IMG/VR virus record: IMGVR_UViG_3300032282_005642 | Location: 1 to 20,950 of that record | Reading direction: 5' to 3' (one strand) | Length of the DNA: 20,950 nt | Source: a virus | In this document: piece after piece, positions 1,809 through 16,850 of the stretch | How positions within the stretch are numbered: the first letter of the stretch is position 1 | Layout: each line of letters starts with the position of its first letter | Program-made: the position numbers and the translations under genes | Notes under the pieces: model-generated | What the model was told of the DNA's origin: nothing | The model's database searches: none | The model's input: only the letters and a program-made list of their open reading frames with translations

Positions 1809-1838
1809 GGGGTAACCTAGGAGGGTACAAGTTACCCC
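1809..1838 (+). promoter_or_regulatory. Hairpin with ribosome-binding site in its loop before the scaffold gene
   Basis: GGGGTAAC (1809-1816) pairs perfectly with GTTACCCC (1831-1838), leaving a 14-base loop. The loop holds AGGAGG (1819-1824), the only near-perfect Shine-Dalgarno sequence I noticed before a gene here. The AGGAGG ends 21 bases before ATG 1846, too far for normal initiation unless the hairpin shortens the distance. The left arm overlaps one copy of the GGNAACCTAG motif. Confidence 0.55.
1811..1820 (+). promoter_or_regulatory. GGNAACCTAG start-associated motif, copy A
   Basis: GGTAACCTAG, ending 25 bases before the scaffold start at 1846. One of nine copies of a motif seen only before gene starts in this window. 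Confidence 0.55.
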
Positions 1839-1845
1839 CGACCTC

Positions 1846-2574
1846 ATGTCCGAGCAGGTCATGGGTGCTCCTTCTGTGGAGGAGCAAGTTGAGCCGGTGG
1901 CTCAGCAACCCGCCCCCCAGTCCACTGATGATGCTTCTGCCCTTCGCAAGAAGCTGGAGCTTGTCCAACAGGACAACCTGGCCAAAGGCGAAGCAAACCG
2001 CAAGCTCAACGAGCGTGTGGGCGAGGCAGAAAAACTCATCCGGGACTTAGAGACCCGCCTCAAGACCACCCATCAGCAGCAACGCGCCGACCAAGGCGAG
2101 TTCAAAACGCTGTGGGAGGAAGCCAATGCCGACAATGCCCGCCTGCAGCAACGCATCGTCGAGCTTGAAGCCGCGCTTCAGGCCAAAGACAGTGAAGCAG
2201 CGCAGGAACGCCTCCGAGCCACGGCCCTTCAACAAATCAGCCAAGCCAACGCGCTTGCCCCCGAGCAACTGCTCGGACTGTTGAAACCGCAACTCCGAGA
2301 CAACAACGGCGTCCCCGTCGTCATCGTCAACGGCATCGAGCAACCTCTCGCCGCCCACCTGGCCAACTTGAAAAATTCCGGCTCCGGCTGGGACCATCAT
2401 TTTGCAGCCACTGGTGCCCGCGGCATGGGCAGTACCCCCAGCAGCAACGTCCCCCCTGGAGTTGTGAACCCCTACAAAAAGGGCGACACTTTTAACTTCA
2501 CGGAGCAGTTGCGCCTTGAGGTCGAAAACCCTGAGCTGGCACGCCTCCTCAAGAGCGAAGCCACTCGCGGGTAA
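1846..2574 (+). CDS. Scaffold-like coiled-coil protein
   Basis: A 242-residue acidic protein placed just before the major capsid gene, where tailed phages normally encode the scaffold that guides procapsid assembly. Residues about 1-30 are Pro/Gln/Glu-rich and disordered. Residues about 32-125 form a long charged heptad-type coiled coil (LRKKLELVQQDN...LEAALQAKDSE). Then follows a segment with QISQANALAPEQLLGLLKPQL and a VPVVIVNG turn, and a C-terminal tail ending EVENPELARLLKSEATRG, which could bind the capsid. This layout resembles gp20-type phage scaffold or minor structural proteins. ATG 1846 is the only standard start codon I see in frame; a hairpin with an embedded Shine-Dalgarno lies upstream. 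Function is inferred from layout and position, with no catalytic motif. Confidence 0.75.
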   Translation: MSEQVMGAPSVEEQVEPVAQQPAPQSTDDASALRKKLELVQQDNLAKGEANRKLNERVGEAEKLIRDLETRLKTTHQQQRADQGEFKTLWEEANADNARLQQRIVELEAALQAKDSEAAQERLRATALQQISQANALAPEQLLGLLKPQLRDNNGVPVVIVNGIEQPLAAHLANLKNSGSGWDHHFAATGARGMGSTPSSNVPPGVVNPYKKGDTFNFTEQLRLEVENPELARLLKSEATRG

Positions 2575-2579
2575 CCACC

Positions 2580-2589
2580 GGCAACCCCG
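2580..2589 (+). promoter_or_regulatory. GGNAACCTAG-like motif, copy B
   Basis: GGCAACCCCG, 13 bases before the major capsid start at 2603; a second partial copy, GGTAACCACC, lies just upstream over the scaffold stop codon. It is a weaker match than copies A, C, E and I. Confidence 0.35.
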
Positions 2590-2602
2590 CTAATCCTGAA
2601 TC

Positions 2603-3646
2603 ATGGCCGCACCTTTTCAAAACTATTCGGACGGGACGTTCCTGACCGATCTGGTCAAGCGCCCCGAATTCCTCACCTATCTGAGTGAGGAAATCGTGGA
2701 GCGTTCTGCCTTTGTGCAGAGCGGTGTCCTGACCCGCAACGCTGCCCTGGACTGCCGCGCTGGCGGCACCCGTGTGCGCGTGCCTTACTTCCAGCCGATC
2801 AACCCCACCGAGGAGATCATCCAGTCAAACGCCACCTGGGGCGAAAGCACCGAGGGCTACCTGACTCCTAAGGCCATCACTGCTTCCGAGCAAGTGATGA
2901 CCATCCTGCACCGTGGCTTCGCCTATGCGGTGGACGACCTGTCCAAGCTGGGCACTGGTGCTGACCCGATGGCTGCCATCCGTGGCTATCTGGCTGCCAG
3001 CATCAACAAACTGCGCACTGCCACGCTGATTGCCCAACTGACCGGCATCTTCGGCGACGCCCTGGCCAACAACAGCCTGGACATCACCGGCGACGCCGAG
3101 AAGGACATCAGCGCCATGGCTGTGATTGCTGCCAAGGCCAAGCTGGGCGAGCGCGGCGAATCGCTGTCTGCGATTGCACTGCACCCGAACCAGTACTACT
3201 ACCTGCAGCAAATCGGGATGCTGACCTTCACCGGCGGCAACGTGCAGTCGGGCGACCCCATCACCTGGGGCGCAGGCGGCACCAACGTGACCAGCGCTGG
3301 CGTGGCGAACTTCGCCGGCCTCCGCGTGATCGTTGACTCCCAGCTGCCCCACAGCGGTGGCGTGTACACCTCTTACCTCTTCGGCCCTGGTGCCGTGAGC
3401 GAGGGTGTGCAGCAGGAACTGCGCATCGAATCCGAGCGCAACATCCTGTCGAAGCAGGACGTGATGGCCGTGGACTACCACTACGGTATGCACGTCAACG
3501 GTGTCACCTGGAACGACGCTGCGGACAACCCGACCAACAGCGACATGGAGGACGACACCAACTGGACCCTCAAGTACAACGCGGACCTGATCCCCGTCGT
3601 GCAACTGAAGTCCGGCACCCCCCTCGATCCCATCCCCGCTCCCTGA
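2603..3646 (+). CDS. Major capsid protein
   Basis: A 347-residue protein directly after the scaffold-like gene, the usual place for the major capsid protein that builds the icosahedral shell. The N-terminus (MAAPFQNYSDGTFLTDLVKR) and the following ERSAFVQSGVLTRNAALD...GGTRVRVPYF pattern match a class of HK97-fold capsid proteins. Later parts include the long-helix region (AIRGYLAASINKLRTATLIAQL), the SAIALHPNQYYYLQQIGML strand, and a GLRVIVDSQLP turn that is common in such capsids. There is no sign of a fused protease. Codon use is strongly GC-ending and even, fitting high expression. No Shine-Dalgarno is visible. A strong hairpin terminator follows, which would separate capsid transcription from downstream genes. 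The fold is inferred from pattern recognition. Confidence 0.88.
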   Translation: MAAPFQNYSDGTFLTDLVKRPEFLTYLSEEIVERSAFVQSGVLTRNAALDCRAGGTRVRVPYFQPINPTEEIIQSNATWGESTEGYLTPKAITASEQVMTILHRGFAYAVDDLSKLGTGADPMAAIRGYLAASINKLRTATLIAQLTGIFGDALANNSLDITGDAEKDISAMAVIAAKAKLGERGESLSAIALHPNQYYYLQQIGMLTFTGGNVQSGDPITWGAGGTNVTSAGVANFAGLRVIVDSQLPHSGGVYTSYLFGPGAVSEGVQQELRIESERNILSKQDVMAVDYHYGMHVNGVTWNDAADNPTNSDMEDDTNWTLKYNADLIPVVQLKSGTPLDPIPAP

Positions 3647-3670
3647 GCGCGACGCGATCTACGGCAACTC

Positions 3671-3696
3671 AAAGCCCCCATCACGGGGGCTTTTTT
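3671..3696 (+). terminator. Rho-independent terminator after the capsid gene
   Basis: AAAGCCCCC (3671-3679) pairs with GGGGGCTTT (3685-3693) around a 5-base loop, and the T run covers 3691-3696. The hairpin lies 24 bases after the capsid stop. It probably ends or attenuates capsid transcription. Confidence 0.9.
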
Positions 3697-3709
3697 CTTG
3701 CCTACTACA

Positions 3710-3719
3710 GGAAACCTAG
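3710..3719 (+). promoter_or_regulatory. GGNAACCTAG start-associated motif, copy C
   Basis: GGAAACCTAG, just after the capsid terminator and exactly 18 bases before ATG 3738. Because it follows a terminator, this is the best candidate for a true promoter element. Confidence 0.6.
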
Positions 3720-3737
3720 AGCACTGGAACAATACCA

Positions 3738-4301
3738 ATGCCTGTCTCGCTGGACGCCACAGTTGGCGGCGCCAACTCAAACAGTTTCATCACTGTGGCG
3801 ACCGCAAACAGCATTGCCGAAAACACCCTCAACGTCACCACTTGGACTGGTGCAAGTGCGGACGACAAAGCCCGCGCCTTGATCATGTCCACCACCGACC
3901 TCCAGCCCTTGGCTTGGGTTGGAACCCGCGCCACCGAAACGCAGGCGCTGGCGTGGCCCCGCACCGATGCGGTGATCAACGGCCGCACAATCGCCGATAA
4001 CGTCATCCCCCGCGAGATCCAGCAGGCCACCTTCGACCTCGCCCTCTCCATCTTGGCTGGAGCCTCAGCCACCTCAGGCGGCGGCGACCTGGTGCCGGGC
4101 GTCCCGAACGGCGACCTCAAGCGCCTCAAACTCGACGTACTGGAGCTGGAATGGCGCGATGAGGGCCTCCCGTCTAACCGCACCAGCACCTACAGCCAGC
4201 TGGTGAGTCGCGCCCCCAGTTTGAGCACCGTGCTCTACGGCACAGTGACAAGTGGTTATACAGGCGGCTCCGGGTTATTAGTCGGGGTGGTGCGTAGTTA
4301 A
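3738..4301 (+). CDS. Head-tail connector, DnaT-like family
   Basis: A 187-residue protein in the connector slot between capsid and tail genes. Its first part matches what annotation pipelines call the putative DnaT-like ssDNA-binding family: GGANSNSFITVATANSIAEN, then a Trp-containing segment (TTWTGASADDKARALIMSTTDL), an AWVGTRATETQALAWPR block, and IPREIQQATFDLALSIL. In tailed phages this family usually behaves as a head-completion or adaptor protein closing the portal, and the DnaT name is misleading. The C-terminal part is Gly/Ser-rich (VTSGYTGGSGLLVGVVRS). It starts 42 bases after the capsid terminator and is preceded by a GGNAACCTAG copy, so it may begin a new transcript. An earlier out-of-frame ATG at 3698 was not used. 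Confidence 0.7.
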   Translation: MPVSLDATVGGANSNSFITVATANSIAENTLNVTTWTGASADDKARALIMSTTDLQPLAWVGTRATETQALAWPRTDAVINGRTIADNVIPREIQQATFDLALSILAGASATSGGGDLVPGVPNGDLKRLKLDVLELEWRDEGLPSNRTSTYSQLVSRAPSLSTVLYGTVTSGYTGGSGLLVGVVRS

Positions 4302-4311
4302 GGCAATCTGT
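4302..4311 (+). promoter_or_regulatory. GGNAACCTAG-like motif, copy D
   Basis: GGCAATCTGT, 11 bases before ATG 4323 or 32 bases before ATG 4344. It is the weakest match to the consensus. Confidence 0.25.
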
Positions 4312-4319
4312 AGCAACCG

Positions 4320-4348
4320 CCCATGTACCTTATTGTGTGGTACATGGG
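4320..4348 (+). promoter_or_regulatory. Perfect 10-bp inverted repeat over the sigma-gene start codons
   Basis: CCCATGTACC (4320-4329) and GGTACATGGG (4339-4348) are exact inverse complements separated by 9 bases. The left arm contains ATG 4323 and the right arm contains ATG 4344, both in frame with the sigma-like gene. As DNA it could be an operator for a dimer; as RNA it would be a hairpin hiding both start codons. Confidence 0.65.
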
Positions 4349-4865
4349 AAAGACCGGCCGCCCCAAAACCGGATATTTAGCGACGCCACTTAGCGGTGAC
4401 GAACAACGCCGCGTGGGACGTTTATACCGCGAGCACCAGGGCATCATCAAACTGATGGGCCGCAAGATGTGCCGCAAGTATCCCTACGTCGCCTTCGACG
4501 ACTTATTCAGCTGCATCGACATCGCCTTCATCAAAACCTGCCGCGCCTGGGACCCCAAGAAAGGCACATTCTCCACACTGCTGACTGTCTTTTCCGAAGG
4601 AGAAATCCGCCACTTCATCCGCGACCACAACTGGCTGGTGAAGGCCCCCGGCACTGTCCGCACGCTGGGGCAACGCGCCCGCCACATGCTGAACCGCGGC
4701 GAACGCATGGAAGACGTACTGGAGCACCTTGGCGTCAGCGAGAAAAAATTGAAAGAAGCCCTGATGGCCACCTGTCCAACAGACCATGAGATCAAGGGCT
4801 TTGAATTACATGTGTGCCCCCGCCCCACACCATGGGATGTGCTGGAGCGCGAAGAATGTGCATAG
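4323..4865 (+). CDS. Sigma-70-like factor, regions 2 and 3 only
   Basis: A 180-residue RNA polymerase sigma-like protein (173 residues if ATG 4344 is used). Residues 54-108 match sigma region 2: YPYVAFDDLFSCIDIAFIK, then CRAWDPKKGTFSTLL, then SEGEIRHFIRDHNWLVKAP. This is the layout of core-binding and -10-recognition helices in group 3 sigma factors of the SigB/SigF kind. Residues about 112-147 (VRTLGQRARHML...VLEHLGVSEKKLKEAL) look like region 3. No region 4, the -35-binding domain, follows, so it may read extended -10 promoters or need a partner. The C-terminus has three Cys residues (151, 165, 179). It sits between connector and tail-tube genes, which would suit a late-gene sigma that feeds back on the structural operon. 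Target promoters are unknown; GGNAACCTAG copies are candidates. Confidence 0.8.
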   Translation: MYLIVWYMGKTGRPKTGYLATPLSGDEQRRVGRLYREHQGIIKLMGRKMCRKYPYVAFDDLFSCIDIAFIKTCRAWDPKKGTFSTLLTVFSEGEIRHFIRDHNWLVKAPGTVRTLGQRARHMLNRGERMEDVLEHLGVSEKKLKEALMATCPTDHEIKGFELHVCPRPTPWDVLEREECA

Positions 4866-4869
4866 CACC

Positions 4870-4879
4870 GGCAACCTAG
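4870..4879 (+). promoter_or_regulatory. GGNAACCTAG start-associated motif, copy E
   Basis: GGCAACCTAG followed by GTATAGG; TATAGG ends 14 bases before ATG 4903, exactly as at the tape measure gene (copy G). The bases before the ATG are CCCCCTCCTC, so no Shine-Dalgarno is present. Confidence 0.6.
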
Positions 4880-4902
4880 TCGTATAGGTTTTCCCCCTCC
4901 TC

Positions 4903-5385
4903 ATGGCAACCGGTGCGTTTTTCGCCGCTTTCGGCTACAAGCTGTGGGTGAAGCTGGGCACTAGCTCCAGCACCATCCCCACCAACTCCACGGGCATGAC
5001 CCGTGTGTTCTCGCTGGATAACGCCGGCATCCAGGCCACCAGCGACAGCACCGCTGTGCTGGACTACGACTCTGAGTACGGCTTCCAGGCCAACCTGATC
5101 ACCGGCCAGAGCTACACCATCCCTTGCTCGATGAACCTCGACGTAACCGACGACGGTTACAAGATTCTGAAACAGGCCGCCCTTGAGGCCACCCAAGGCA
5201 CCTTGGTTGAGTGGTTCCGCGAGACCCCTGTGACCGACGGTTCCGCCGACCTGCCCGAAGTCCACGCCGGCCTTGCACAGATCGGCTCGTTCTCTGAGGA
5301 CATCACCGCCGGCAACATCGCCAAGGTGAGCTTCGACCTGATCGGCTACGGCGCCTACGACTGGACCGCCCAGCAGCCCGACTGA
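4903..5385 (+). CDS. Major tail (tube) protein
   Basis: A 160-residue beta-rich protein, probably the tail-tube subunit that stacks around the tape measure. It has the size and style of siphovirus major tail proteins: an N-terminal FGYKLWVKLGTSSSTIP strand, a YDSEYGFQANLITGQSYTIPCSM segment, then GYKILKQAALEATQGTLVEWFRETP, the region in which many tail-tube proteins carry a conserved D/G..L..A...G turn, and a closing GNIAKVSFDLIGYGAYDW strand. It is followed by a hairpin terminator. Copy E of the start-associated motif precedes it. The gene is separated from the tape measure by two minus-strand genes, instead of the usual tail-chaperone pair. Confidence 0.72.
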   Translation: MATGAFFAAFGYKLWVKLGTSSSTIPTNSTGMTRVFSLDNAGIQATSDSTAVLDYDSEYGFQANLITGQSYTIPCSMNLDVTDDGYKILKQAALEATQGTLVEWFRETPVTDGSADLPEVHAGLAQIGSFSEDITAGNIAKVSFDLIGYGAYDWTAQQPD

Positions 5386-5414
5386 CCCAACCACCACAAC
5401 TTGACGAGGGGACC

Positions 5415-5444
5415 AAGCCCCGGCCTAACCAGCTGGGGCTTTTT
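5415..5444 (+). terminator. Rho-independent terminator after the major tail gene
   Basis: AAGCCCC (5415-5421) pairs with GGGGCTT (5435-5441), and inner pairs extend the stem; the T run covers 5440-5444. It lies between convergent genes and touches the stop codon of the minus-strand gene at 5443. In the minus direction the T run is weak, so it mainly serves the plus strand. Confidence 0.8.
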
Positions 5445-5934
5445 ACTGCCCGCTCGCTTTAGCGTTCCACCGCGCCACCAAAAACGGCATAAACGGCTTC
5501 GCCTCCAGTGTCGAGGTCAGCCAATTGCGCTTCACCTGCTCGGGCGTTGCCTTGCGCCCCTCCGGATTTATGTAGGGGTCGTACTTACCCAGCAGGATGT
5601 TTTTGGCGTATGGGGCAGTCCACGTAATCGACAATGCCACACCTTTCGGACTATTGCCAACAACCGGCGGCTGTTGAGAGTTCAGCAGTTTGCCTGTATC
5701 CACAATGTCCCGCTTCCCTTCTGGAATCAGGATTCCACCGCGCTCTGGGGTACCCCCCATCAGCAAACTTTTGAAGCGCAGCGTTGGAGCAGGCCAATCC
5801 CACTTCCGCGCCGTGATCTCCTCCCGCGCCTGCTCTGCCAGCTGGGGCCCAAACTCCTCCAGCACCTTGCCCGCAGCGGCCAGCAGCTTGTCCGCGTTCC
5901 ACTCCTTAAAGGTGACCCTGATGCGGGTAGCCAT
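5443..5934 (-). CDS. HK97 gp10-like tail completion protein
   Basis: A 163-residue minus-strand protein with the layout of the HK97 gp10 family, which in siphoviruses caps the tail tube or joins it to the head. An N-terminal amphipathic helical part (NADKLLAAAGKVLEEFGPQLAEQAREEI) is followed by the family's VDTGKLLNS motif (residues 78-86), a beta segment ending in WTAPYAKNILLG (residues 105-116), and the closing KPFMPFLVARW (146-156), equivalent to the usual RPF-P box. Its start overlaps the stop of the upstream minus-strand gene by one base (TGATG), so the two are translationally coupled. It is unusual for this family to be encoded against the direction of the structural operon. Confidence 0.72.
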   Translation of the reverse strand: MATRIRVTFKEWNADKLLAAAGKVLEEFGPQLAEQAREEITARKWDWPAPTLRFKSLLMGGTPERGGILIPEGKRDIVDTGKLLNSQQPPVVGNSPKGVALSITWTAPYAKNILLGKYDPYINPEGRKATPEQVKRNWLTSTLEAKPFMPFLVARWNAKASGQ

Positions 5935-6329
5935 CAGTCCTGCTTCCGCGCCACCAGCTTGATCGACTCCCCAAGCGTGCTATTGAGGATGGTGCCAATC
6001 AAGCCGGTCTTACCGTAAGGCGTCCTCAACGACAGCACCTCAAACGGCACGGGGCTCTCCCCGGCAAACGTAAGCGTCCCAGTGCTGAGCACCCCAATGG
6101 CTGGATCAAAAGCCGTGGGTGACACGGCGTACCCCTCATAGATGGTGGTGGTCTGGTTCACACCGGGATAAACCACCTCATTGACGGTGGTGGCTTTGAG
6201 GAAAAGGGTGACGGTGACATCCTTATCAGCGGGCAGGACGTTGCCGGTGGCTGGATCGGTGTAGACCCCTGTGGTGGCGACTTTGAAGACAGCCGTGGCA
6301 TTTGCCACCGCAGATAGGGCCGAGGCCAT
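5934..6329 (-). CDS. Unrecognised minus-strand virion-type protein, possible head-tail adaptor
   Basis: A 131-residue protein translated with the gp10-like gene through a one-base stop/start overlap. It is beta-rich with a Thr/Val-rich composition: VFKVATTGVYTDPATGNVLP, then VTVTLFLKATTVNEVVYPGVNQTTTIYEGY, and a C-terminal GTILNSTLGESIKLVARKQD. No family is recognised. The genes next to gp10 homologues in other phages often encode a head-tail stopper or adaptor, so that role is possible. ATG 6329 is preferred over the longer TTG at 6365, because a GGAAACCTTG motif copy lies 18 bases upstream, and the extra 12 residues look like leader sequence. Confidence 0.55.
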   Translation of the reverse strand: MASALSAVANATAVFKVATTGVYTDPATGNVLPADKDVTVTLFLKATTVNEVVYPGVNQTTTIYEGYAVSPTAFDPAIGVLSTGTLTFAGESPVPFEVLSLRTPYGKTGLIGTILNSTLGESIKLVARKQD

Positions 6330-6347
6330 TGGCTGGTGCTCTTTACC

Positions 6348-6357
6348 CAAGGTTTCC
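6348..6357 (-). promoter_or_regulatory. GGNAACCTAG start-associated motif, copy F (minus strand)
   Basis: GGAAACCTTG on the minus strand, exactly 18 bases before ATG 6329, the same spacing as copies C and H. Its orientation follows the gene, showing strand specificity. Confidence 0.5.
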
Positions 6358-6360
6358 GCC

Positions 6361-6370
6361 GGCAACCTCG
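6361..6370 (+). promoter_or_regulatory. GGNAACCTAG start-associated motif, copy G
   Basis: GGCAACCTCG followed by GTATAGG ending 14 bases before GTG 6393, matching copy E. It lies back to back with copy F in the 63-base gap between divergent genes. Confidence 0.55.
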
Positions 6371-6392
6371 TGTATAGGCATTGCGCATACCT

Positions 6393-8927
6393 GTGGCAGA
6401 CCTCGGCACAGCCGTATTAACAATCGAGGTCGATCAAAAAGGCTTTGAAGCCAGCCTCGCGCAAGCAAAACAAACAATTCAACGCGAATTAGGCGGCACA
6501 ATCCAGACCGCCACGCAGCGTGGAGCACGAGGCAACCAAGGCGGAAATCGCGGTCGTGATGCCGAGCTTCGGGCCGCCTCCCAACTGCTGCGTCTGCGCA
6601 ACAGCATCAACATCCTTGAAGCCAACGGCGTAAACGTCTCCAAGCTTCGCACCCGCTTATCTGACCTTGAAACCCTAGCCGCCGACAAAAAATACAAAGC
6701 CCTCAAGCAAGAAGGCGAAGCACTCCGCCAAGTCGTATCACAAGAACAAAACCGTTTAAAAGTAAGCAATATAAATAAACGCAATGCTGAAGCACAGGTA
6801 AAACTTAGCGAAAAACAGAGCGCCGCTTCGGTGGCGCTTAATAAACAAAGAGATGCTGCATTTAGAAAAGGTGTTGCACAAGCGAAAAAAGATGCACAGT
6901 TTGCTGCTTCGTACGGTCCGCAATTACCAAAAACACCTAGCGGCAGTACCAGATCTGCCGAGGCTGCAGAACGAGCAGCCTTACGTGAAGGTAGACGCAT
7001 TGGACGCCTAAACGTAAGCCCTATTGGAGGTGGTGTTGCTTTCCCTGGTTCCCCAAAAGCCCTTGAAGCCGCTGCAGCAGCAGAAAGAAAACGCAATAAA
7101 GAATTAGATATAACTGCAGCCAAATTACAAAAAACAGCAGCCAGCGAACGAAAAGCCGCCTCACAGCGCCGCCGCGACATCATTTCAAACGTCGCCATCG
7201 GCGCCGGTTTCCCGCTGTTGTTCGGCCAAGGCTTTGGAGCTGCTGCAGGTGGCGCCCTTGGCGGCGGCATTGGTGGAGCACTTGGCGGCACAGCTGGCTT
7301 TGCGGGCTCCATTGTCGGCACCGCCCTCGGCCAAGCTTTTGATCAAGCCCTCCAAAAAGCGCAAGCGCTGGCGCAAGGACTTGACGACCCAATCAAAAAC
7401 TTTGATGCTCTACGCCAAGCAGCATTGCTATCTAGCAAAGCGGTGGAGCGCAATGCGGAAGCGTTGATTGCGGCTGGCCGAGAAGAGGAAGCCGCCGCAC
7501 TGATCCGCGCCGATCTCAACCGTACATTCGGCTCACCCGAAGCCGCCGCTGAATTCACAGCGGCTACCGACGAACTCAATCGCGCCTGGAGCCAAGCCAC
7601 AGTTTCGCTGACCGCATTTGTAGCCGGCCCGCTGGCACAGTTTTTGCGCGGTGTGTCTATCTTTTTGGGTGGCGGCCCCGCGGCAAGTGCAAAAGCAGAC
7701 GTTGCACGCGCTAGGCAGATTGCAGCCAGCAGCCCCGAAAAGCAAGCCCAGCTGGAGCGCTTGGTACGTCAACGTGGCGGCCGCCTAAACGAAGAGGGCA
7801 ACATCGCCGGCGCAGCATCCGTACCTATTTTCCGCGAGTACCTGAAACTCAACGGCGAGTTGACCGCTGAGCAGAAACAACAAAAGGCACTTACGGATGC
7901 ATTGAGCGAAGGTGCAGCCCGCACCGCAGAGGCAAACCGCCTGAACCTTGCAATTATTGAGGAAAGCGCCCGCGGCAATAAAGAAGCCGCCGCTCAAAAG
8001 GAGCTGGAACTCCTTGCGATTGAGAAAACCCGCCGTATAAACGCACTGCCCCAGACAGCGACTAATGTTGACCGGCAGCGTATTGACCAAGAGTTTGCGG
8101 AAAAACAGGCTAGTGCCGAAGAGAAGCTGACCGCAGCACGACAGGAACGCGCCCGCGCCACATTTGAAGAATTCCAAAAGCAACAACAGATTGAACGCAG
8201 CATCGCCAACACCCTCCAACTGCTTGGAGCACAGCGAGGCGAGTACCGCGACACGCTCCGCACAATCCAGCAAATTTCCACAACGATTAACGAAGCCCGT
8301 CAAAGAGAAGCTGAAATCGGCTTCCAAATCGACCAAGCCCGCCAAGGCGGCCGCGAAGAGGATGCTGCCCGCTTGGTGGAACAACAACGCACTGCCGCCA
8401 CCGAAACCCGCGCCCGCTTGGTTGAAGGCGCACTGGCACTGACCGAAGCCGGCGAAAGCCTACGCGACAACCTCCGCAGTTCTGTGCTGGAACTCGCCAA
8501 ACTCCAAAGCGGCGAAGGCGGCCTCAACAGATTCTTATCGCAGGGGCTTCAACAGCAACGTGCTGAACAGACAAATGCGGCCCTGCAACCATTCCTGCGC
8601 GAAGCACTGGGACGTTTCAGGCAGCTCATCCCTAATGCTGACCTGAGCAACATAAACCAAGTGTTGGGCGGTCGAACAACAGCGGAAGTCAACGCCAACA
8701 TCATCGACTTTATTGAGTCCGTAAACCGCGAATTCCAAGCCACCCAGAATGTGCAGGGCGCCCAAGCCGCTTTGCAGGAAGTCAACAAGGCCCTCGTGGA
8801 TGTCAACAGCCAGCTCCTCGGCGCCACACAGGCACTGGCGCAGAAGGAATGGGTCGTCAACATTGACGTAGTGAACCAGGCCGGTGGGGCCAGCACCGTC
8901 AACACCGTCAACTCCTTGGCCTCATGA
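6393..8927 (+). CDS. Tail tape measure protein
   Basis: An 844-residue protein that fixes tail length and is packed inside the tail tube. It has the hallmarks of the family. The N-terminus is LTIEVDQKGFEASLAQAKQTI; long Ala/Glu/Gln/Arg-rich coiled coils run through most of the length. A Gly/Ala-rich hydrophobic segment lies near residues 262-315 (NVAIGAGFPLLFGQGFGAAA...GGIGGALGG) and may insert in the host membrane. The C-terminus reads VVNQAGGASTVNTVNSLAS. GTG 6393 is chosen over TTG 6381 because its upstream TATAGG spacing equals that of the major tail gene. At about 0.15 nm per residue it would imply a tail near 125 nm. An AT-richer patch (about 6760-7140) interrupts the GC-rich gene. The stop overlaps the next start (ATGA). 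Confidence 0.88.
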   Translation: MADLGTAVLTIEVDQKGFEASLAQAKQTIQRELGGTIQTATQRGARGNQGGNRGRDAELRAASQLLRLRNSINILEANGVNVSKLRTRLSDLETLAADKKYKALKQEGEALRQVVSQEQNRLKVSNINKRNAEAQVKLSEKQSAASVALNKQRDAAFRKGVAQAKKDAQFAASYGPQLPKTPSGSTRSAEAAERAALREGRRIGRLNVSPIGGGVAFPGSPKALEAAAAAERKRNKELDITAAKLQKTAASERKAASQRRRDIISNVAIGAGFPLLFGQGFGAAAGGALGGGIGGALGGTAGFAGSIVGTALGQAFDQALQKAQALAQGLDDPIKNFDALRQAALLSSKAVERNAEALIAAGREEEAAALIRADLNRTFGSPEAAAEFTAATDELNRAWSQATVSLTAFVAGPLAQFLRGVSIFLGGGPAASAKADVARARQIAASSPEKQAQLERLVRQRGGRLNEEGNIAGAASVPIFREYLKLNGELTAEQKQQKALTDALSEGAARTAEANRLNLAIIEESARGNKEAAAQKELELLAIEKTRRINALPQTATNVDRQRIDQEFAEKQASAEEKLTAARQERARATFEEFQKQQQIERSIANTLQLLGAQRGEYRDTLRTIQQISTTINEARQREAEIGFQIDQARQGGREEDAARLVEQQRTAATETRARLVEGALALTEAGESLRDNLRSSVLELAKLQSGEGGLNRFLSQGLQQQRAEQTNAALQPFLREALGRFRQLIPNADLSNINQVLGGRTTAEVNANIIDFIESVNREFQATQNVQGAQAALQEVNKALVDVNSQLLGATQALAQKEWVVNIDVVNQAGGASTVNTVNSLAS

Positions 8928-9670
8928 CCCTCACACTCGGCGACTTCAGCTTTAACACGTTGACCGCCCAGCCGTTTGGCTACGCGGAAACGGACACGCA
9001 GGCGGGCCTCACTGCCCGCAAGTGGCGCATAGCGGGCCTGTGTACTGCCGCCGAATGGCAGGACTTACTGGATGTCTACGACGCCTGGCAATCAGACCGC
9101 AAGGAAGACGAGGACTCCCTCAAGAGCGGCGTGATCGGCACCACGGTCCCCCTGACCGCCAATGCCAACGGCATCACCTGGACGAGTGTGGCCTGCTGGT
9201 TCCTGAGCGCCCCAAGCGGCGAGCAGGCCGGCCCCTACATCAGCGTCGATGCCGAAGTCGTCGATGCCATCCAAGCACTGGAGGTTTTGCTCTACCAAGA
9301 GGAAAAAAACCAGCAACGTGAGGAGGCGCTGTTACCTGACCTCGGCACGGTGACCGTTGGCACCACGGTGATCACGCTCACCAAACCGATGGAGACCTAC
9401 GAAAACAACCCGCAGGTCGCGCTTACCGCAGCTGGATCGCATTACATCAGCGGCCCCTTGACGGCCTCCCGCATCCGCGACATCGAGGGCACCACCGACA
9501 CCCAAGGCTGGGAGGACCTCCTCGACTGGTTTGAGGCCATCGTCCAAACCACCCCCTCAACTGGAACGTGGTATCCCGTGAGCGCCCCAACCGCTAGCGC
9601 CGAGGCCATTATTGATTTGGGCGTCAAAACCACCCGCTATACAGTGACCTTGCGGCTGATCGAGATCTGA
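8924..9670 (+). CDS. Probable distal tail or baseplate protein with internal repeat
   Basis: A 248-residue protein directly after the tape measure, overlapping its stop by four bases, in the slot where siphoviruses encode distal tail proteins. No family is recognised with certainty. Two halves look related: LTARKWRIAGLCTAAEWQDL (residues 29-48, continuing to about 55) resembles the segment at 179-206 (LTASRIRDIEG...GWEDLLDWFEAI), suggesting an internal duplication or two copies of one fold. The closing strand (RYTVTLRLIEI) fits a beta-rich tail protein. Its stop overlaps the next start (TGATG), so the two proteins are probably made in step and act together. Confidence 0.55.
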   Translation: MTLTLGDFSFNTLTAQPFGYAETDTQAGLTARKWRIAGLCTAAEWQDLLDVYDAWQSDRKEDEDSLKSGVIGTTVPLTANANGITWTSVACWFLSAPSGEQAGPYISVDAEVVDAIQALEVLLYQEEKNQQREEALLPDLGTVTVGTTVITLTKPMETYENNPQVALTAAGSHYISGPLTASRIRDIEGTTDTQGWEDLLDWFEAIVQTTPSTGTWYPVSAPTASAEAIIDLGVKTTRYTVTLRLIEI

Positions 9671-12075: not shown

Positions 12076-12087
12076 TCCGCTGGTGCC

Positions 12088-13257
12088 ATGACCATTTCCT
12101 TCCTGCCAACTAGCACCTTCGGGGTTTACGGGTTGTCCCAACTGCTGGAAAGCCGCGGCACTTACGTGGTCATGCAGTTGCTGTACGTACCGCCCGAAAC
12201 ACCAGGCGACCGCACGCTTTGGACATGGCAGAACAACTGGAAAAACTACGCAGTCGCTGGAGCATTTAGCGGCACCGGCGGCAGCTTGAACCTAAGCACC
12301 CAAGGCGCCAGCCCCACCGTATCCGCAACGCTATACGAAGAAGCCACCAGCCAGTTTGCTGGAGCCTATACCGAGTTTGACCCTGCGTACCCAGACGGCG
12401 GTTACATCACTGTATTCAACAACAGCACCAATACTTATACCTACACGCACGCAGCTGTCTTTGCCATGCAAGGCAGCATCACTAGCCCCGACAACATCAT
12501 ATTTGACGAGACCTCGCTGTATCAGATTGGCACCGCGTACGACTTTGATACGGGCCAACCCGGAACAGCCACACTGGCGCCCTACAGCAGCAATCTGATG
12601 ACGTTTTTCTCATCATTTACGCTTACCGAAGGCTTTAACGGTTGGGTAACGGCAGACGAAAATACGACGCAATATGAAAATCCACCTTATCCAATTTTTT
12701 TCAGTTTATACGTACCACGCAACACACAAAACAACGCCAACGTACTAGACAACTACAAAACATTATTAGGTATTACTGAGACGGATACCACCACTAGCTT
12801 CTTGGCCGAACTCCTCAACGTAACCGGCACCGAACCCGATTTTGAAGCGGGCTGGAGCGGCTGGTCCACGTACCGCATAAACCGCTACAGCACAGCATCC
12901 TTTACACCAAAGTACACCTATACATCGCGTAGTGGAGAGTTTGTCACTACGTTTGATGGGGTGGATTACGAGGTTGTGGACAGCGGCACAGAGTTGTCGT
13001 ACTCCAACTACACCGAGTTTGTTTTTACGCCCCCTGCTGCAGGTTCTTTCACCTTCACACACATCGCTGTATTTGCCCATGAGGTGGATTCCCCGCCTCA
13101 GCAGGGCACTACCTACAATTATGCAGACACAAACAAATTGGTTGGTGTTATCAAACTGCCCGCTTCCGTCACGATGACAACGACAAGCGCCAACCGTGCA
13201 TATCCCTTTAAGTTCTCGTATATGTACCAAATGGATCAAACCATAACCGAGCTATGA
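12088..13257 (+). CDS. Unrecognised virion protein with two related domains
   Basis: A 389-residue Thr/Tyr/Ser/Asn-rich, strand-rich protein, typical of tail-tip or fibre-associated proteins. No family is recognised. An internal repeat is visible: NTYTYTHAAVFAMQ (residues 115-128) matches GSFTFTHIAVFAHE (residues 319-332), each preceded by a YTEF segment and a short aromatic strand. This suggests two copies of one beta-sandwich domain. The start lies 12 bases after the hub-like gene's stop, with no motif copy and no clear ribosome site. A stretch near 12600-12780 is AT-richer than its surroundings. Confidence 0.5.
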   Translation: MTISFLPTSTFGVYGLSQLLESRGTYVVMQLLYVPPETPGDRTLWTWQNNWKNYAVAGAFSGTGGSLNLSTQGASPTVSATLYEEATSQFAGAYTEFDPAYPDGGYITVFNNSTNTYTYTHAAVFAMQGSITSPDNIIFDETSLYQIGTAYDFDTGQPGTATLAPYSSNLMTFFSSFTLTEGFNGWVTADENTTQYENPPYPIFFSLYVPRNTQNNANVLDNYKTLLGITETDTTTSFLAELLNVTGTEPDFEAGWSGWSTYRINRYSTASFTPKYTYTSRSGEFVTTFDGVDYEVVDSGTELSYSNYTEFVFTPPAAGSFTFTHIAVFAHEVDSPPQQGTTYNYADTNKLVGVIKLPASVTMTTTSANRAYPFKFSYMYQMDQTITEL

Positions 13258-13268
13258 AGCTAGATTTG

Positions 13269-13278
13269 GGTAACTTAG
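13269..13278 (+). promoter_or_regulatory. GGNAACCTAG start-associated motif, copy H
   Basis: GGTAACTTAG, exactly 18 bases before ATG 13297, in the largest intergenic gap of the distal tail cluster (39 bases). Confidence 0.5.
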
Positions 13279-13296
13279 TACTGTAACGGACCTCTC

Positions 13297-13707
13297 ATGG
13301 CGATCACCACGACCATCAGCCAAGCCGAGCTGGCACGCTTGGCCGCAGCTGCCTATGAGGGTCTGAGCTACCGGATCTGCTTGGCACTGAATGGCGGCAG
13401 CGGCAAAACCGCCAACAGCACGGTGGCCCAGTGGGATACGGTCGAACTGAGCGGCAACGGCTACGCCCGCTTTGAGGGCACCATTGGCACTGGCAGCTGG
13501 GACAGCACCGACCTGCGCTACGAGATGCCGGTCATTGACGCCGAGTTCCAAGCCAGCGGTGGCACCCTCGCCTACGACACGGTGTATACCGTCATTGACA
13601 ACGGCGTAACCGAAACCCTCCACAGCATCATCGTCGAAGCCCCTTCGGTGACACTGGTGGATGGGGCCAGCATCATCTATCGCATCACCTTGGCGACGGA
13701 TGACTGA
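13297..13707 (+). CDS. Small beta-rich virion protein, unrecognised
   Basis: A 136-residue protein with a helical N-terminus (MAITTTISQAELARLAAAAY) and a strand-rich remainder: ARFEGTIGTGSWDSTDLRYE, then LAYDTVYTVIDNGVTETLHS and SIIYRITLATDD. It is coupled to the next gene by a TGATG overlap and preceded by copy H of the start motif. I do not recognise a family. Size, style and position suggest an accessory tail-tip or fibre-attachment protein, but no motif proves this. Codon use is GC-rich, unlike the body of the following gene. Confidence 0.5.
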   Translation: MAITTTISQAELARLAAAAYEGLSYRICLALNGGSGKTANSTVAQWDTVELSGNGYARFEGTIGTGSWDSTDLRYEMPVIDAEFQASGGTLAYDTVYTVIDNGVTETLHSIIVEAPSVTLVDGASIIYRITLATDD

Positions 13708-15086
13708 TGAGCACGCAGATCAACCTGACCATTGGTGATCAGCGCCTACTTCAAGCCAACAAAACCCGCACTGCCGCCAACCAACAAGCCCTCGACGACC
13801 GCACGGCTTCCAAGCAGCTGGAGCAAAAAGCCACCGAGGCTGCCGAGGCCGCTGCACCAGAACAGCGACCTGGAGCATTACCCGATACCCGCACTGGCCG
13901 CCGCCCCACCGCCCAACGCTTCGGACAAAAAACAGGCTTACTACTTTTTGATAACATTAAACCTAAAATTGTTGAAGACAGCAGTGTAAATATAAACAAC
14001 ACAAATCTACAAGTTAGCGTACAGGATACACGCTTTGTCAGCGGCAATTTTGTGTATTCTCGTGCTTTTGTTTCAACAACTAACTGGCTATATTACCGAA
14101 CACTAAACACGAGCCCGATAATTTACACATTTGATTCACCCCAAAACATGCCAACAGGTATACCAACACCGCAGTATTTAACAAGCTCTGATTTTAATGT
14201 ATACAGTGTATATTACAGCACAACTAGTTCTTCTTGGCGCACAAAACGTCAAGCCGTTTTACGCATTGGCACCGGCTCAGCCGCAGCACCACAAACCTTT
14301 ACGGATTCCCTCGGAGCATTTCCAATTTCAACCATAGCCAGTGCACTAGAACTAAAAACCGTTGTCCACAGCTCAACAATAGACAACACTTACGTTTCGT
14401 ACGTGATTAGATATTTTGGATACAACATTGGTGAATACAGCGGACCTGCTGTAGCAAATCTAAGTAAACCCGGCAGAGGATCTGCCATATCTTTAACAGA
14501 TACCTACATTCAAGCATCTAGCGCCACCTTAAATACATTAGGTATTTATTTTAAAACTGATCACCAAACAGGCATAACTACTTATCGCACGGAAACCTTA
14601 GATACTACAGTATACCCTTTATCGACTACAACTATTAACGTTTTTTTGCCTCCGGGAGGAGTTCAGCCGGGTTTATACCCATTTACCAGTCAGCAGCAGC
14701 AAAACTTTGTAGCAAACATGTCTGTTGACGATCCCCGTAAAATTATGTACCAGCAAACCAATAGGCTCGACTACGCATTGGACACGGCAATTAACGGATG
14801 CATGTATAACCCTGATACAGGCGGAATGTACGTAACTGCTTTTGATAAAAATTACGAAAATGTATTTATAGCCAAGGCCACGGTAGACCGCGGATTGACT
14901 TACGCCACTGCGTTGCTGGAGCAAGCAAAGCCAGCTGCCTTAGCCATCAAAAACAATTTGGCGGATACGGTGCCAACTGCTTTAACCGCTCCTTTTACGC
15001 TTTACAGTCAGTTCATCAATACGCTGGGACCTGACACAACTTTCCCTGCGGGGCTTGGAAAGTTTTACGTAATGTTTGGCACATGA
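13707..15086 (+). CDS. Unrecognised fibre-type protein with AT-rich body
   Basis: A 459-residue protein in two parts. Residues 1-72 are GC-rich in codon use and form a helical, Ala/Gln/Glu-rich segment with RTAANQQALDDR and a TRTGRRPTAQR linker; this probably docks the protein on the virion. From base about 13925 to 14880 the DNA turns AT-rich, and the protein becomes a Thr/Ser/Tyr/Asn-rich beta structure typical of receptor-binding regions. The last part (VDRGLTYATALLEQAKPAAL) returns to GC-richer codons. The composition change suggests that the exposed central domain was exchanged between phages. Both ends are translationally coupled (TGATG upstream, ATGA downstream). No family is recognised. 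Confidence 0.55.
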   Translation: MSTQINLTIGDQRLLQANKTRTAANQQALDDRTASKQLEQKATEAAEAAAPEQRPGALPDTRTGRRPTAQRFGQKTGLLLFDNIKPKIVEDSSVNINNTNLQVSVQDTRFVSGNFVYSRAFVSTTNWLYYRTLNTSPIIYTFDSPQNMPTGIPTPQYLTSSDFNVYSVYYSTTSSSWRTKRQAVLRIGTGSAAAPQTFTDSLGAFPISTIASALELKTVVHSSTIDNTYVSYVIRYFGYNIGEYSGPAVANLSKPGRGSAISLTDTYIQASSATLNTLGIYFKTDHQTGITTYRTETLDTTVYPLSTTTINVFLPPGGVQPGLYPFTSQQQQNFVANMSVDDPRKIMYQQTNRLDYALDTAINGCMYNPDTGGMYVTAFDKNYENVFIAKATVDRGLTYATALLEQAKPAALAIKNNLADTVPTALTAPFTLYSQFINTLGPDTTFPAGLGKFYVMFGT

Positions 15087-15235
15087 ACTACCAAACCCTG
15101 CTGGAATCCATCGCACTTCGCACCGCTGCCAATCAAGCGGCCCTGTTGAAGCGGCTATCCGCCAACACCACCATAAGTAGTACAGTACGCCAGATTTCTA
15201 GTACAGTGACAGGACAGCGCAATCCGCCTCAGTGA
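15083..15235 (+). CDS. Small coupled protein, 50 residues
   Basis: A short gene whose ATG overlaps the upstream TGA (ATGA, 15083-15086) and whose own TGA overlaps the GTG of the next gene (GTGA, 15232-15235). Coupling at both ends is strong evidence that it is translated. The sequence is helical at first (MNYQTLLESIALRTAANQAA), followed by a Ser/Thr-rich tail. Its RTAANQAAL resembles RTAANQQAL near the N-terminus of the preceding protein, so both may use the same docking helix. Function unknown. Confidence 0.65.
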   Translation: MNYQTLLESIALRTAANQAALLKRLSANTTISSTVRQISSTVTGQRNPPQ

Positions 15236-15816
15236 GCAAACTGCCCTTCATCGTTGCTCCACCCAAACAGAAGCTACGCCGCGTCGGCAACGAATCCGTA
15301 GGCATCCTTGAGATCCCGGTTTTCGGCGGCATCACAGTGGGCGAATCCGCTATTGCCGCCGAGATCCTTGCACTGGAGCAAAGCAGCTTTGTGGCGGGGG
15401 CCCGCATTGCCGATGCCATCGCCAAGGAGGAAAACATCTCCCTGAGCGAAGCATTCCACATCATCGAGTCGGCTGTTGGTGGCCGTGAGCTGGAGCAAAA
15501 GGCTGATGAGATCCGCACCCGCCACGCCGAACGCATCGAAGAGGTGGCACGTATTTACACCGCAGCCGGCCAACGCAACATGGAGGCCACCGTCACTGCC
15601 GTCATCCGCTGCCGTTTGAAGTTGGCTGACTGGGGCGTAGACGACACCCGCACCATGCCGCGCAAGCTGTTTCAGGACATCTGGGCACTGGTGCAGGAGG
15701 AGCAAGAGGCTGAGAATCTTGAGTCTCAACCTGTGACTGAGGAAGAGCTAAAAAAGCCGCAGCCGGAAGCTACGAGCGCTCCGAAACGGACTGGGAAGAG
15801 ATCTTCTACGACCTAG
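15232..15816 (+). CDS. Tail assembly chaperone-like protein (frame-0 product, G-like)
   Basis: A 194-residue acidic helical protein, probably the short form of a tail assembly chaperone, the analogue of lambda gpG that binds the tape measure during tail assembly. It begins MSKLPFIVAPPKQKLRRVGN and contains GESAIAAEILALEQSSFVAG, a helical middle, and LADWGVDDTRTMPRKLFQDI. The GTG start overlaps the previous TGA. Near its end the sequence GAG CTA AAA AAG holds the heptamer A AAA AAG (15750-15756). Ribosomes that do not slip finish with a short basic tail (KRTGKRSSTT); those that slip back by one continue into the next frame. Chaperone function is inferred from the frameshift layout; in most siphoviruses these genes lie between tail tube and tape measure, and here they are over 6 kb downstream. 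Confidence 0.68.
   Translation: MSKLPFIVAPPKQKLRRVGNESVGILEIPVFGGITVGESAIAAEILALEQSSFVAGARIADAIAKEENISLSEAFHIIESAVGGRELEQKADEIRTRHAERIEEVARIYTAAGQRNMEATVTAVIRCRLKLADWGVDDTRTMPRKLFQDIWALVQEEQEAENLESQPVTEEELKKPQPEATSAPKRTGKRSSTT
15750..15783 (+). promoter_or_regulatory. Programmed -1 ribosomal frameshift signal
   Basis: The slippery heptamer A AAA AAG spans 15750-15756 in the correct phase (X XXY YYZ). After a 7-base spacer, 15764-15770 can pair with 15778-15783 (CGGA-A-GC with GCTCCG, one bulged A) around a 7-base loop, a plausible stimulatory hairpin. Downstream, the -1 frame is open for 214 codons. Confidence 0.82.
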
Positions 15817-16400
15817 CCTCCGGCTTCCCGGCTCAATTCCACGTCAGCACCTTTTCGCAGCAGTTGCGTGTGGTGGTGCTTCGTGCATGGCGCCAACTCC
15901 AGCGAATCCGCCGCGAACAGGCCGCATTGCTGGAGCTACCACAGGCTCAGCACATGGCGTTGCTGGCCAACATCAACCGCGACCCCAAGAAGTCCAAGCC
16001 GTTCAGCGCCATGGACTTCGCCATGTTCCAGGCGAATAAGTCCGATGACGTGAAGCTTCCCGCCGAGGTGGTCGCCGTTGCGTTGGCATTAAGGCATGAA
16101 GGCATGTTGCCCCCAACCGCCATGGCCGCTTGGCCGCAAATCATCGCCCAGGCCAACGAGGCTGGAGCAGTTCCTGCAATACGGGCCCTACACAGCGACG
16201 ACGATGCGGTATGGGTGCTGGCGCCAAAGTGGGAGGGCCGCAACATCCGCGCCGGGTTGGTAGCCGTTGGCGACTACATCGACAAACCCCTACGCCTACG
16301 CGATATCGACAAACCGCTGATGACGTATACGGTGCGGCTGCCCCAGCGCAAGTTGGCAGGCTATGTGGAGGCTGGCTTGTTGCTGGTACTGGAAAACTAG
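15756..16400 (+). CDS. Frameshift extension of the tail assembly chaperone (T-like domain)
   Basis: The -1 frame, open from 15741, has no ATG near its beginning and is probably reached only by slippage, giving a fusion of about 389 residues (175 from frame 0 plus 214 here). After the junction the protein reads AAAGSYERSETDWEEIFYDL, then ASGFPAQFHVSTFSQQL, then a basic helix (VVVLRAWRQLQRIRREQAALL). This resembles the T part of gpGT-like chaperones, which recruits tail-tube subunits. The rest (NRDPKKSKPFSAMDFAMFQA, VVAVALALRHEGMLPPTAM, WVLAPKWEGRNIRAGLVAVG) is longer than usual T domains and may be an added domain. A separate start at TTG 15864 is possible, but I see no ribosome site for it. 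Confidence 0.7.
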   Translation, partial: AAAGSYERSETDWEEIFYDLASGFPAQFHVSTFSQQLRVVVLRAWRQLQRIRREQAALLELPQAQHMALLANINRDPKKSKPFSAMDFAMFQANKSDDVKLPAEVVAVALALRHEGMLPPTAMAAWPQIIAQANEAGAVPAIRALHSDDDAVWVLAPKWEGRNIRAGLVAVGDYIDKPLRLRDIDKPLMTYTVRLPQRKLAGYVEAGLLLVLEN

Positions 16401-16404
16401 GATC

Positions 16405-16833
16405 ATGGACATCCTCCAGCTGCGAACCGAACTAGAGACGCTGCTGGTGGACGGCCTCGGTGTCTACACGCTGCCGAACGGTGCCGAGACCCCTGCGGTT
16501 TCAGTGCGTTCCAGCGGTGAGCGCACCACCCCCGGCACCACCGTCATTGGCGTCGAGCTGGTGCTGTTGCGTGATGCCGCCCTCGCCCCGATCAATCAAT
16601 ACAGCAACCAAGCGGCCTTCCGCAGCTGGACGCTATTCCTCGTTGACTGGAGCGAGGAAGTGGATCTGGAGCCGCTGGCGGCAGCGGTGATCGAGGCATA
16701 TCCGGGCACCACGGTTGACGTGGTTACGGTGCCTGAGGGTGCGGGGCCGAAACATCAGTTGCGGCTGGTGGTTCGCACGAATCCAGCGCGGACGACGGAC
16801 TGCGCCAATGCTGTTGTCCCAGCCACCTGCTGA
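16405..16833 (+). CDS. Unrecognised small tail-module protein
   Basis: A 142-residue protein. ATG 16405 follows the previous stop by four bases and is preferred to the in-frame ATG at 16363, which would overlap the chaperone gene by 38 bases. It begins MDILQLRTELETLLVDGLGV, followed by PAVSVRSSGERTTPGTTVIG, a LFLVDWSEEVDLEPLAAAVI segment and a VPEGAGPKHQLRLVVRT strand. The alternation of a helix with strands and a YPGTTVDVV turn resembles small tail terminator or tail-completion proteins, but I cannot name a family. It lies just before the BppU-like protein and the collagen fibre gene. Confidence 0.5.
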   Translation: MDILQLRTELETLLVDGLGVYTLPNGAETPAVSVRSSGERTTPGTTVIGVELVLLRDAALAPINQYSNQAAFRSWTLFLVDWSEEVDLEPLAAAVIEAYPGTTVDVVTVPEGAGPKHQLRLVVRTNPARTTDCANAVVPATC

Positions 16834-16836
16834 GCG

Positions 16837-16846
16837 GGGAACCTAG
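16837..16846 (+). promoter_or_regulatory. GGNAACCTAG start-associated motif, copy I
   Basis: GGGAACCTAG, only 4 bases before ATG 16851. This short distance is hard to reconcile with a simple -10 promoter role for every copy. Confidence 0.5.
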
Positions 16847-16850
16847 AACC

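Follow-up and report, generated by a model that had tools for sequence, protein, structure and literature searches.

A short DNA element that recurs before the virion genes of a 20,950-nucleotide (nt) stretch of viral DNA (positions 1 to 20,950 of the IMG/VR virus record IMGVR_UViG_3300032282_005642, of which it is a fragment; hereafter the window, whose own numbering is used for its genes) invites comparison with several described systems. The gp36 sigma factor of phage phiEco32, devoid of region 4, reads the sequence tAATGTAtA at middle and late promoters, with transcription starting 6-8 bp downstream (PMC8948821), and gp55 of T4 reads an 8-bp TATA box without a -35 element (PMC2988020). The siphovirus P-SS2 has two sigma factors, including one of group 3 (ORF 003; PMC2784084), while the late promoters of cyanophage Ma-LMM01 are of the host type (PMC5780444). 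The start-associated sequences of cluster K mycobacteriophages lie 3-7 bp from start codons, contain AGGAG and are found in the non-structural half of the genome (PMC3203893).

We found that the element of the window, with the consensus GGNAAMCTAGG, is a real promoter-like element and very probably serves as late promoter for a sigma factor encoded by the phages themselves, a group of uncultivated siphoviruses. Judging from sequence comparison, we regard it as highly likely that it acts as a single-element late promoter of the virion genes, which would be read by a phage sigma factor with regions 2 and 3 and would give rise to leaderless or short-leader starts. The evidence for a promoter comes from co-occurrence with the sigma gene, concentration in the structural arms, divergent back-to-back copies, a terminator and the spacing to start codons. 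The preliminary description of the window had left open whether the motif is a promoter for the sigma-like factor of the phage or a start-associated translation signal of the cluster K kind; the first reading is well supported, the second is not supported.

As with the late promoters of phiEco32 gp36 and T4 gp55, a short conserved element lies upstream of middle or late genes and in their orientation. The phiEco32 system also resembles the present one in having a phage sigma factor; region 4 is absent from that of phiEco32 and was not found in the one described here. However, the present consensus contains GC pairs, a leaderless option is predicted, and the sigma gene lies within its own late operon, whereas that of phiEco32 is a middle gene; no match of the sigma factor to phiEco32 was reported at an E-value of 1e-5. 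With T4 gp55 it shares a small divergent protein of the sigma family, an element at the place of the -10 box, the lack of a -35 element and an AT-rich stretch just downstream, but the element is not a TATA box, is longer and carries a conserved GG on both sides. The literature searches listed no publication on the motif or on this sigma family.

The motif, its consensus, orientation and spacing, its co-occurrence with the sigma gene, its concentration in structural arms and the operon position of the sigma gene were computed directly from the sequences. The exact string GGNAACCTAG occurs four times in the window (1811, 3710, 4870 and 16837), always on the plus strand, against an expectation of 0.10 per shuffled sequence, and none of 100 shuffles reached four copies. 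Matching with up to two mismatches over the whole window gave no enrichment (40 observed, 51 expected); since it yields fewer matches than chance and is therefore misleading, we used exact counts and a 17-position matrix built from the sites of relatives and scored in bits. Nine window sites reached at least 11 bits (mean of 1.05 and maximum of 5 in 200 runs of a first-order Markov null). Eight of them lie at gene starts, and the ninth, at 19546 (12.1 bits), is within a tail-fibre gene.

Seven of the nine start-adjacent copies claimed earlier were recovered (12.8-19.3 bits). The other two, at 2580 and 4302, scored 1.4 and 0.2 bits, respectively, and were dropped. A strong copy absent from the original list, GGAAAACTAG at 16391 (19.1 bits), lies 4 nt 5' of ATG 16405, and the TAG within it is the stop codon of the upstream open reading frame (ORF). 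The orientation follows that of the gene at all eight gene-start sites, as had been stated, and the spacing of exactly 18 nt to the ATG was reproduced for 3710, 13269 and the minus-strand copy. The shared GTATAGG following the copies at 4870 and 6361 stands at an equal distance (14 nt) provided that the latter gene starts at GTG 6393. The statement that overlapping genes lack the motif was borne out across the loci, where a gap of less than 10 nt precedes 44% of genes without the motif and 1% of genes with it. Shine-Dalgarno (SD) sequences are scarce as well: SD tetramers occur at 18 of the 149 genes with the motif and at 53 of the 232 without it.

To derive the consensus, 158 related viral loci were gathered via the capsid and sigma proteins, with genes called by a simple codon-score caller rather than a standard annotator. 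Redundancy was lowered by context identity; L081-L158, L001-L005 and the window (84 sequences) include several near-duplicate contigs. In the 158 loci and the window, GGNAACCTAG was found 148 times on the plus strand and 3 times on the minus strand, and the reversed string 33 and 4 times, in loci that overlap and were all oriented by the query gene. Among 68 context-reduced exact copies in the sigma-linked loci, 62 lie before called starts, 2 inside genes and 4 elsewhere. Matrix scores fall into two peaks, separated by a minimum at 8-11 bits.

The full consensus, GGNAA[C/A]CTAGGNNAA, is based on 125 nonredundant sites that carry no more than one mismatch and are situated 15-28 nt from a start. 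Numbered 0 to 14, its positions comprise G, G, any base, A (125 of 125), A (122), C (85) or A (21), C (112) or T (13), T (125), A (105), G (123) and G (88), followed by two free bases and by a preference for A at positions 13 (54) and 14 (76). Positions 12-15 are rich in A and T (70, 81, 98 and 80 of 125). No base is conserved upstream in the manner of a -35 element, the 20 positions preceding the motif each holding at most 0.13 bit (n=125), and the SD core AGGAG is absent from the consensus.

The candidate reader is a 180-amino-acid sigma factor encoded in the window. Its region 2 was recognized by Pfam Sigma70_r2 (E-value 9e-6), and the sequence resembles SigF and SigB (E-values 0.008-0.009). 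An AlphaFold model (mean pLDDT 75) aligns with the sigma2 domain of SigE (Z 9.8, 77 residues, root-mean-square deviation 2.2), and its residues 22-168, covering sigma2 and sigma3, align with SigB and sigma28; the fold search by VIA-align listed only sigma domains, a result which leaves room for other folds. Neither Pfam nor the model alignment gave a match to region 4, residues 154-171 being poorly modelled. The lack of -35 conservation fits a sigma factor without a detected region 4. Family members are 50-90% identical to the copy of the window and have 40 invariant columns. None was found in plasmids; only three weak matches, to Bacillus phages, were obtained among named phages, and in metagenome-assembled genomes relatives were limited to two short, possibly mis-binned contigs (Rhodoferax and Planctomycetia bins). 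None of 74 sigma genes has its own site within 60 nt, and for 71 of the 74 a site lies further upstream (median 619 nt), namely that of the adaptor gene.

The motif and this sigma gene occur together. The 78 sigma loci (848 kb) hold 436 sites of at least 12 bits, compared with 30 for the reversed-string control, and every locus has at least one. In 75 capsid relatives without a sigma match (646 kb, 50-62% identity) there were 33 such sites and 38 in the control. The sigma gene was absent from all 75 of these loci and from the 39 of their contigs that were searched whole, the other 36 having been covered as loci only. The sole capsid relative with clear exact copies, L038, has three, in the same contexts as in the sigma-bearing L155, and a comparison of coordinates places its end before the position of the L155 sigma gene. 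A scan of the viral collection for divergent motif pairs, made without any protein query, returned 39 stretches in 38 contigs, 32 of which carry the sigma gene. Five of the six remaining contigs are short or partial and have the divergent gene context of the family, and one (L160) is unrelated. Seventeen pair loci that share less than 5% of 60-mers with the training set contain 61 sites that reach 12 bits, compared with 3 in the control; the way in which these loci were chosen would by itself account for 34 of the 61, at two per locus. The L160 contig, which is 153 kb long, AT-rich and without a sigma relative, holds at 203-229 a perfect palindrome, CCTAGGTTACC...GGTAACCTAGG, which is probably unrelated.

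This association bears on the foremost alternative, in which the element is a promoter read by a host sigma or another phage factor and the 180-residue protein has other targets. Room for it is given by the lack of known hosts for these phages, by a second sigma factor in the early arm of one relative and by the group 3 sigma factors of cyanobacteria (PMC2784084). We nevertheless consider it unlikely, given how tightly the motif accompanies this sigma gene and given the absence of enrichment in the capsid relatives and in two cyanophages, S-2L (0 sites, 0 in the control) and the first 50 kb of P-SS2 (1 site, 9 in the control). The P-SS2 sigma factor is itself similar to the family, aligning with its profile over 105 residues at 30% identity, but its phage differs in having no motif excess in the stretch examined. 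The motif core is identical across sigma clades, with mild drift at positions 2, 5 and 8 only, and for this reason no co-variation of motif and sigma is claimed.

The distance to the start codon provided further insight. It was measured to the first ATG or GTG of the called gene after the motif, within 60 nt, because the start choice of the caller leaned to 21 nt; 163 of 199 nonredundant sites had such a codon and 36 did not. The distribution is bimodal: 138 sites fall at 16-28 nt and a smaller group of 10 at 3-4 nt, the interval of 5-15 nt is nearly empty (6 sites), and 9 sites lie further out. The pattern is lost among the 129 weak sites (5-8 bits), 107 of them lacking a start within range. 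Both modes occur in a single family, that of a minus-strand gene preceding the putative tape-measure gene; the proteins of this family start with MASALSALANAT. A site is present in 63 of its 68 ortholog rows; according to a tally of these rows, the spacing is 3 nt in 27 (all ATG) and 16-25 nt in 36 (19 ATG, 17 GTG), with none at 4-15 nt. The start codons can be considered sound, since the N-termini align. At a spacing of 3-4 nt the A of the ATG is motif position 13 or 14, the same positions at which leadered sites favour A (54 and 76 of 125). Initiation of transcription at positions 13-14 would explain both modes, yielding either leaderless mRNAs or leaders of about 14-21 nt. The window sites at 16391 and 16837 are of the leaderless spacing type.

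Two-mode spacing argues against the second alternative, a translation signal in the mRNA leader comparable to that of cluster K, which we judge improbable. Its appeal lies in the position of the motif just 5' of start codons, in its single orientation and in the rarity of SD sequences at motif genes; with cluster K it has in common that a short, asymmetric repeat precedes numerous start codons. Nevertheless, a signal of this kind is difficult to reconcile with two separate spacings (3 nt and 16-25 nt) within one orthologous family, with start codons that overlap the conserved A positions at 3-4 nt, with the lack of an SD core or with adjoining divergent copies. Moreover, the cluster K sequences are 3-7 bp from the start (PMC3203893) and belong to the non-structural half, whereas the present motif lies mainly 16-28 nt away, at 3-4 nt in the minor class, lacks AGGAG and resides mainly in the structural arm.

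The sites are found mainly in structural arms. One 47.6-kb relative (G007) carries a terminal repeat of 120 bases or more and is therefore probably complete; here, sites scoring 12 bits or higher occupy 1-16.9 kb and 35-47.6 kb, with none at 16.9-35.0 kb. Ten proteins were scanned; DNA polymerase, primase, exonuclease and SSB matches fall in the gap, and terminase, tail fibre and glycosyltransferase matches in the flanks, with an endolysin at 17.6 kb, just beyond the last site. A hit at 2426 (11.9 bits) lies away from starts. A second relative (G002) has no sites at 24.3-38.0 kb, a region with a DNA polymerase and an anti-restriction protein. In a third (G005), most sites lie at 0.9-30 kb, and the early arm carries an integrase, a polymerase, a primase and a second, larger sigma factor. 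This last gene (G005:C1:32575-33594, minus strand; L196), beside the integrase, encodes 339 amino acids and matches phrog_351 (E-value 3.5e-62); it may drive early or middle transcription or set off the late switch. The string GGGAACCTAG is present on the other strand at G005:C1:32401 and 38546 (minus), at 29381 in G009 and at 29313 in G010, in no case within 45 nt of a called start.

The stoperators of phage L5, to which a repressor of the phage binds and thereby silences its genome, are short, asymmetric and located between genes, with an orientation that follows transcription. A silencing or repressor-binding function of this type would be consistent with directional sites in short gaps, as well as with the integrase genes, of two different kinds, of G002 (L199) and G005 (L196), which suggest temperate members. 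We find it very improbable in view of the fixed bimodal spacing to start codons, the concentration in structural arms, the divergent copies that each serve their own gene and the enrichment of A at the predicted start. Least probable of all is recognition by a single-subunit phage RNA polymerase of the T7 type, whose promoters the motif resembles in being contiguous and short with nothing further upstream: PF00940 was detected in none of 14 contigs, those of 42-48 kb included, with a positive T7 control, although no contig reaches a completeness rating of 90%, the end repeat of G007 notwithstanding.

A promoter is also indicated by the arrangement upstream of the adaptor gene. A predicted intrinsic terminator after the capsid gene ends about 16 nt before the site at 3710, its stem ending 44 nt before ATG 3738. 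If it works, a new transcription start is needed at this place. It tops the list of terminator-like structures, of which there are 20 in all and 20.8 in shuffles; because this total equals chance, only this strong terminator, at 3671-3693, was used. The arrangement of terminator and site is retained in relatives of the clade of the window.

Several observations weigh against reading the motif as the late promoter of this sigma factor. The adjacency of terminator and site is general in the clade of the window only (7 of 94 motif genes, compared with 2 of 106 others). Two G005 sites, at 32401 and 38546 (minus), fall in the early arm. Differences in GC content (46 versus 59.5%) and fragments that end before the sigma position confound the comparison with capsid relatives, and motif and sigma could be co-inherited even if the factor does not read the motif. 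Because sites 15-28 nt from starts served to train the matrix, the abundance of this spacing in the loci used for training is in part circular. This circularity does not extend to the exact-consensus counts, to the 3-4 nt mode or to the 17 loci outside the training set, although the latter were chosen for the motif pair. Finally, if the only upstream promoter is that of the sigma factor itself, the origin of the first sigma molecules is unexplained.

Beyond the computed features, we infer the promoter nature of the motif, its start position, its reading by this sigma factor and the resulting feedback as follows. The sigma factor would join the host RNA polymerase core and read GGNAA[C/A]CTAGG as an extended -10-like single element, with no -35 element used. 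By analogy with sigma70-type contacts, we take the GG to be -14/-13, the invariant A to be -11, the invariant T to be -7 and the G to be -5. The RNA would begin at an A located 13-14 nt beyond the first G, and the downstream genes would either start exactly with the transcript (leaderless) or be preceded by about 14-21 nt of leader. Since the sigma gene is the second in an operon with such a promoter, late expression would amplify itself once begun.

On a broader scale, it seems rather probable that we are dealing with an uncultivated, widespread siphovirus lineage that has its own sigma factor and an unusual, GC-containing single-element promoter doubling as a leaderless-start device, in which the same orthologous gene evolves between a leaderless state and one with about 14 nt of leader or more, intermediates being avoided, and in which the inclusion of sigma in its own regulon constitutes a self-amplifying late switch. 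The proposed promoter predicts, base by base, the transcription starts of hundreds of virion genes in uncultivated phages, and would pair a promoter sequence with its sigma factor without any isolate. The occurrence of one orthologous gene in leaderless (3 nt) and leadered (16-25 nt) forms suggests a natural series on the leader length tolerated by ribosomes. Start codons can be corrected (e.g. GTG 6393 and ATG 16405), and the motif may serve as a marker for further members. While a pairing of motif and sigma is expected in kind, the consensus and the bimodal spacing are new and directly testable.

The features of the window are collected in Table 1.

Table 1. Predicted promoter sites (P1-P8) and associated features of the window. 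Distances are from the site to the start codon; "rows" are ortholog rows.
Feature	Sequence	Position	Strand	Score (bits)	Distance and start codon	Predicted transcription start	Gene(s) or description	Orthologs
P1, predicted promoter site	GGTAACCTAGGAGGGTA	1811..1827	+	16.1	25 nt before ATG 1846	~1824-1825	scaffold protein, then capsid gene	site conserved, at 20-27 nt in 29 of 89 rows with site
Predicted intrinsic terminator		3671..3697	+				after capsid gene; 9-pair stem, T tail	
P2, predicted promoter site	GGAAACCTAGAGCACTG	3710..3726	+	16.5	18 nt before ATG 3738	~3723-3724	head-tail adaptor, then sigma	49 of 122 with site, at 18 nt in 30 of these
Head-tail adaptor Ad1		3738..4301	+				phrog_477, E-value 5e-30; first gene of sigma-containing transcription unit	
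Phage sigma factor, 180 amino acids		4323..4865	+				phrog_351, Sigma70_r2; regions 2 and 3	
P3, predicted promoter site	GGCAACCTAGTCGTATA	4870..4886	+	18.8	23 nt before ATG 4903	~4883-4884	major tail protein	62 of 73 rows with site, 19-36 nt
P4, predicted promoter site	GGAAACCTTGGGTAAAG	6341..6357	-	19.3	18 nt before ATG 6329	~6343-6344	leftward	
P5, predicted promoter site	GGCAACCTCGTGTATAG	6361..6377	+	15.7	22 nt before GTG 6393	~6374-6375	putative tape measure gene	58 of 91 rows with site, mostly 20-25 nt
P6, predicted promoter site	GGTAACTTAGTACTGTA	13269..13285	+	12.8	18 nt before ATG 13297	~13282-13283		12 of 23 rows with site, 18 nt in 10
P7, predicted promoter site	GGAAAACTAGGATCATG	16391..16407	+	19.1	4 nt before ATG 16405	A of ATG 16405	predicted leaderless	none found outside the window
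P8, predicted promoter site	GGGAACCTAGAACCATG	16837..16853	+	14.9	4 nt before ATG 16851		predicted leaderless; ATG is earliest start codon in its ORF	

P4 and P5 are divergent and 3 bp apart, each of the two divergent genes having its own copy of the motif. From comparison with relatives, the long gene at 6381-8927 most likely starts at GTG 6393 rather than at TTG 6381; its designation as a putative tape measure gene follows from position and length, without a family match. Between 1500 and 17300, five sigma70-type promoters were predicted (6.2 in shuffles), none at motif genes, and SD pairing at motif genes was the same as in shuffled sequences. No Rfam family or tRNA was found in the window.

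The window includes the virion module, with genes for head morphogenesis, scaffold, major capsid and head-tail adaptor proteins, the sigma factor, the major tail protein, the gene in the place of the tape measure and tail genes. No match to phage records was found for it at the DNA level, and psbA/Photo_RC was not detected in 19 contigs. The nearest named relatives of the capsid protein are those of marine virus AG-345-A17 (50%) and of cyanophages such as S-2L (39%).

An intein appears to be present in the head morphogenesis protein (Phage_Mu_F; 25-1584), with an Intein_splicing match at residues 241-295 (E-value 6e-5, below the Pfam cut-off); by eye, the frame resumes after a putative C-terminal HN/C junction near 1548. 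At the other end of the window (17198-19600) lies a long tail-fibre gene with collagen-like GXY repeats (GATGPTG), and its G007 relative matches collagen-like tail families.

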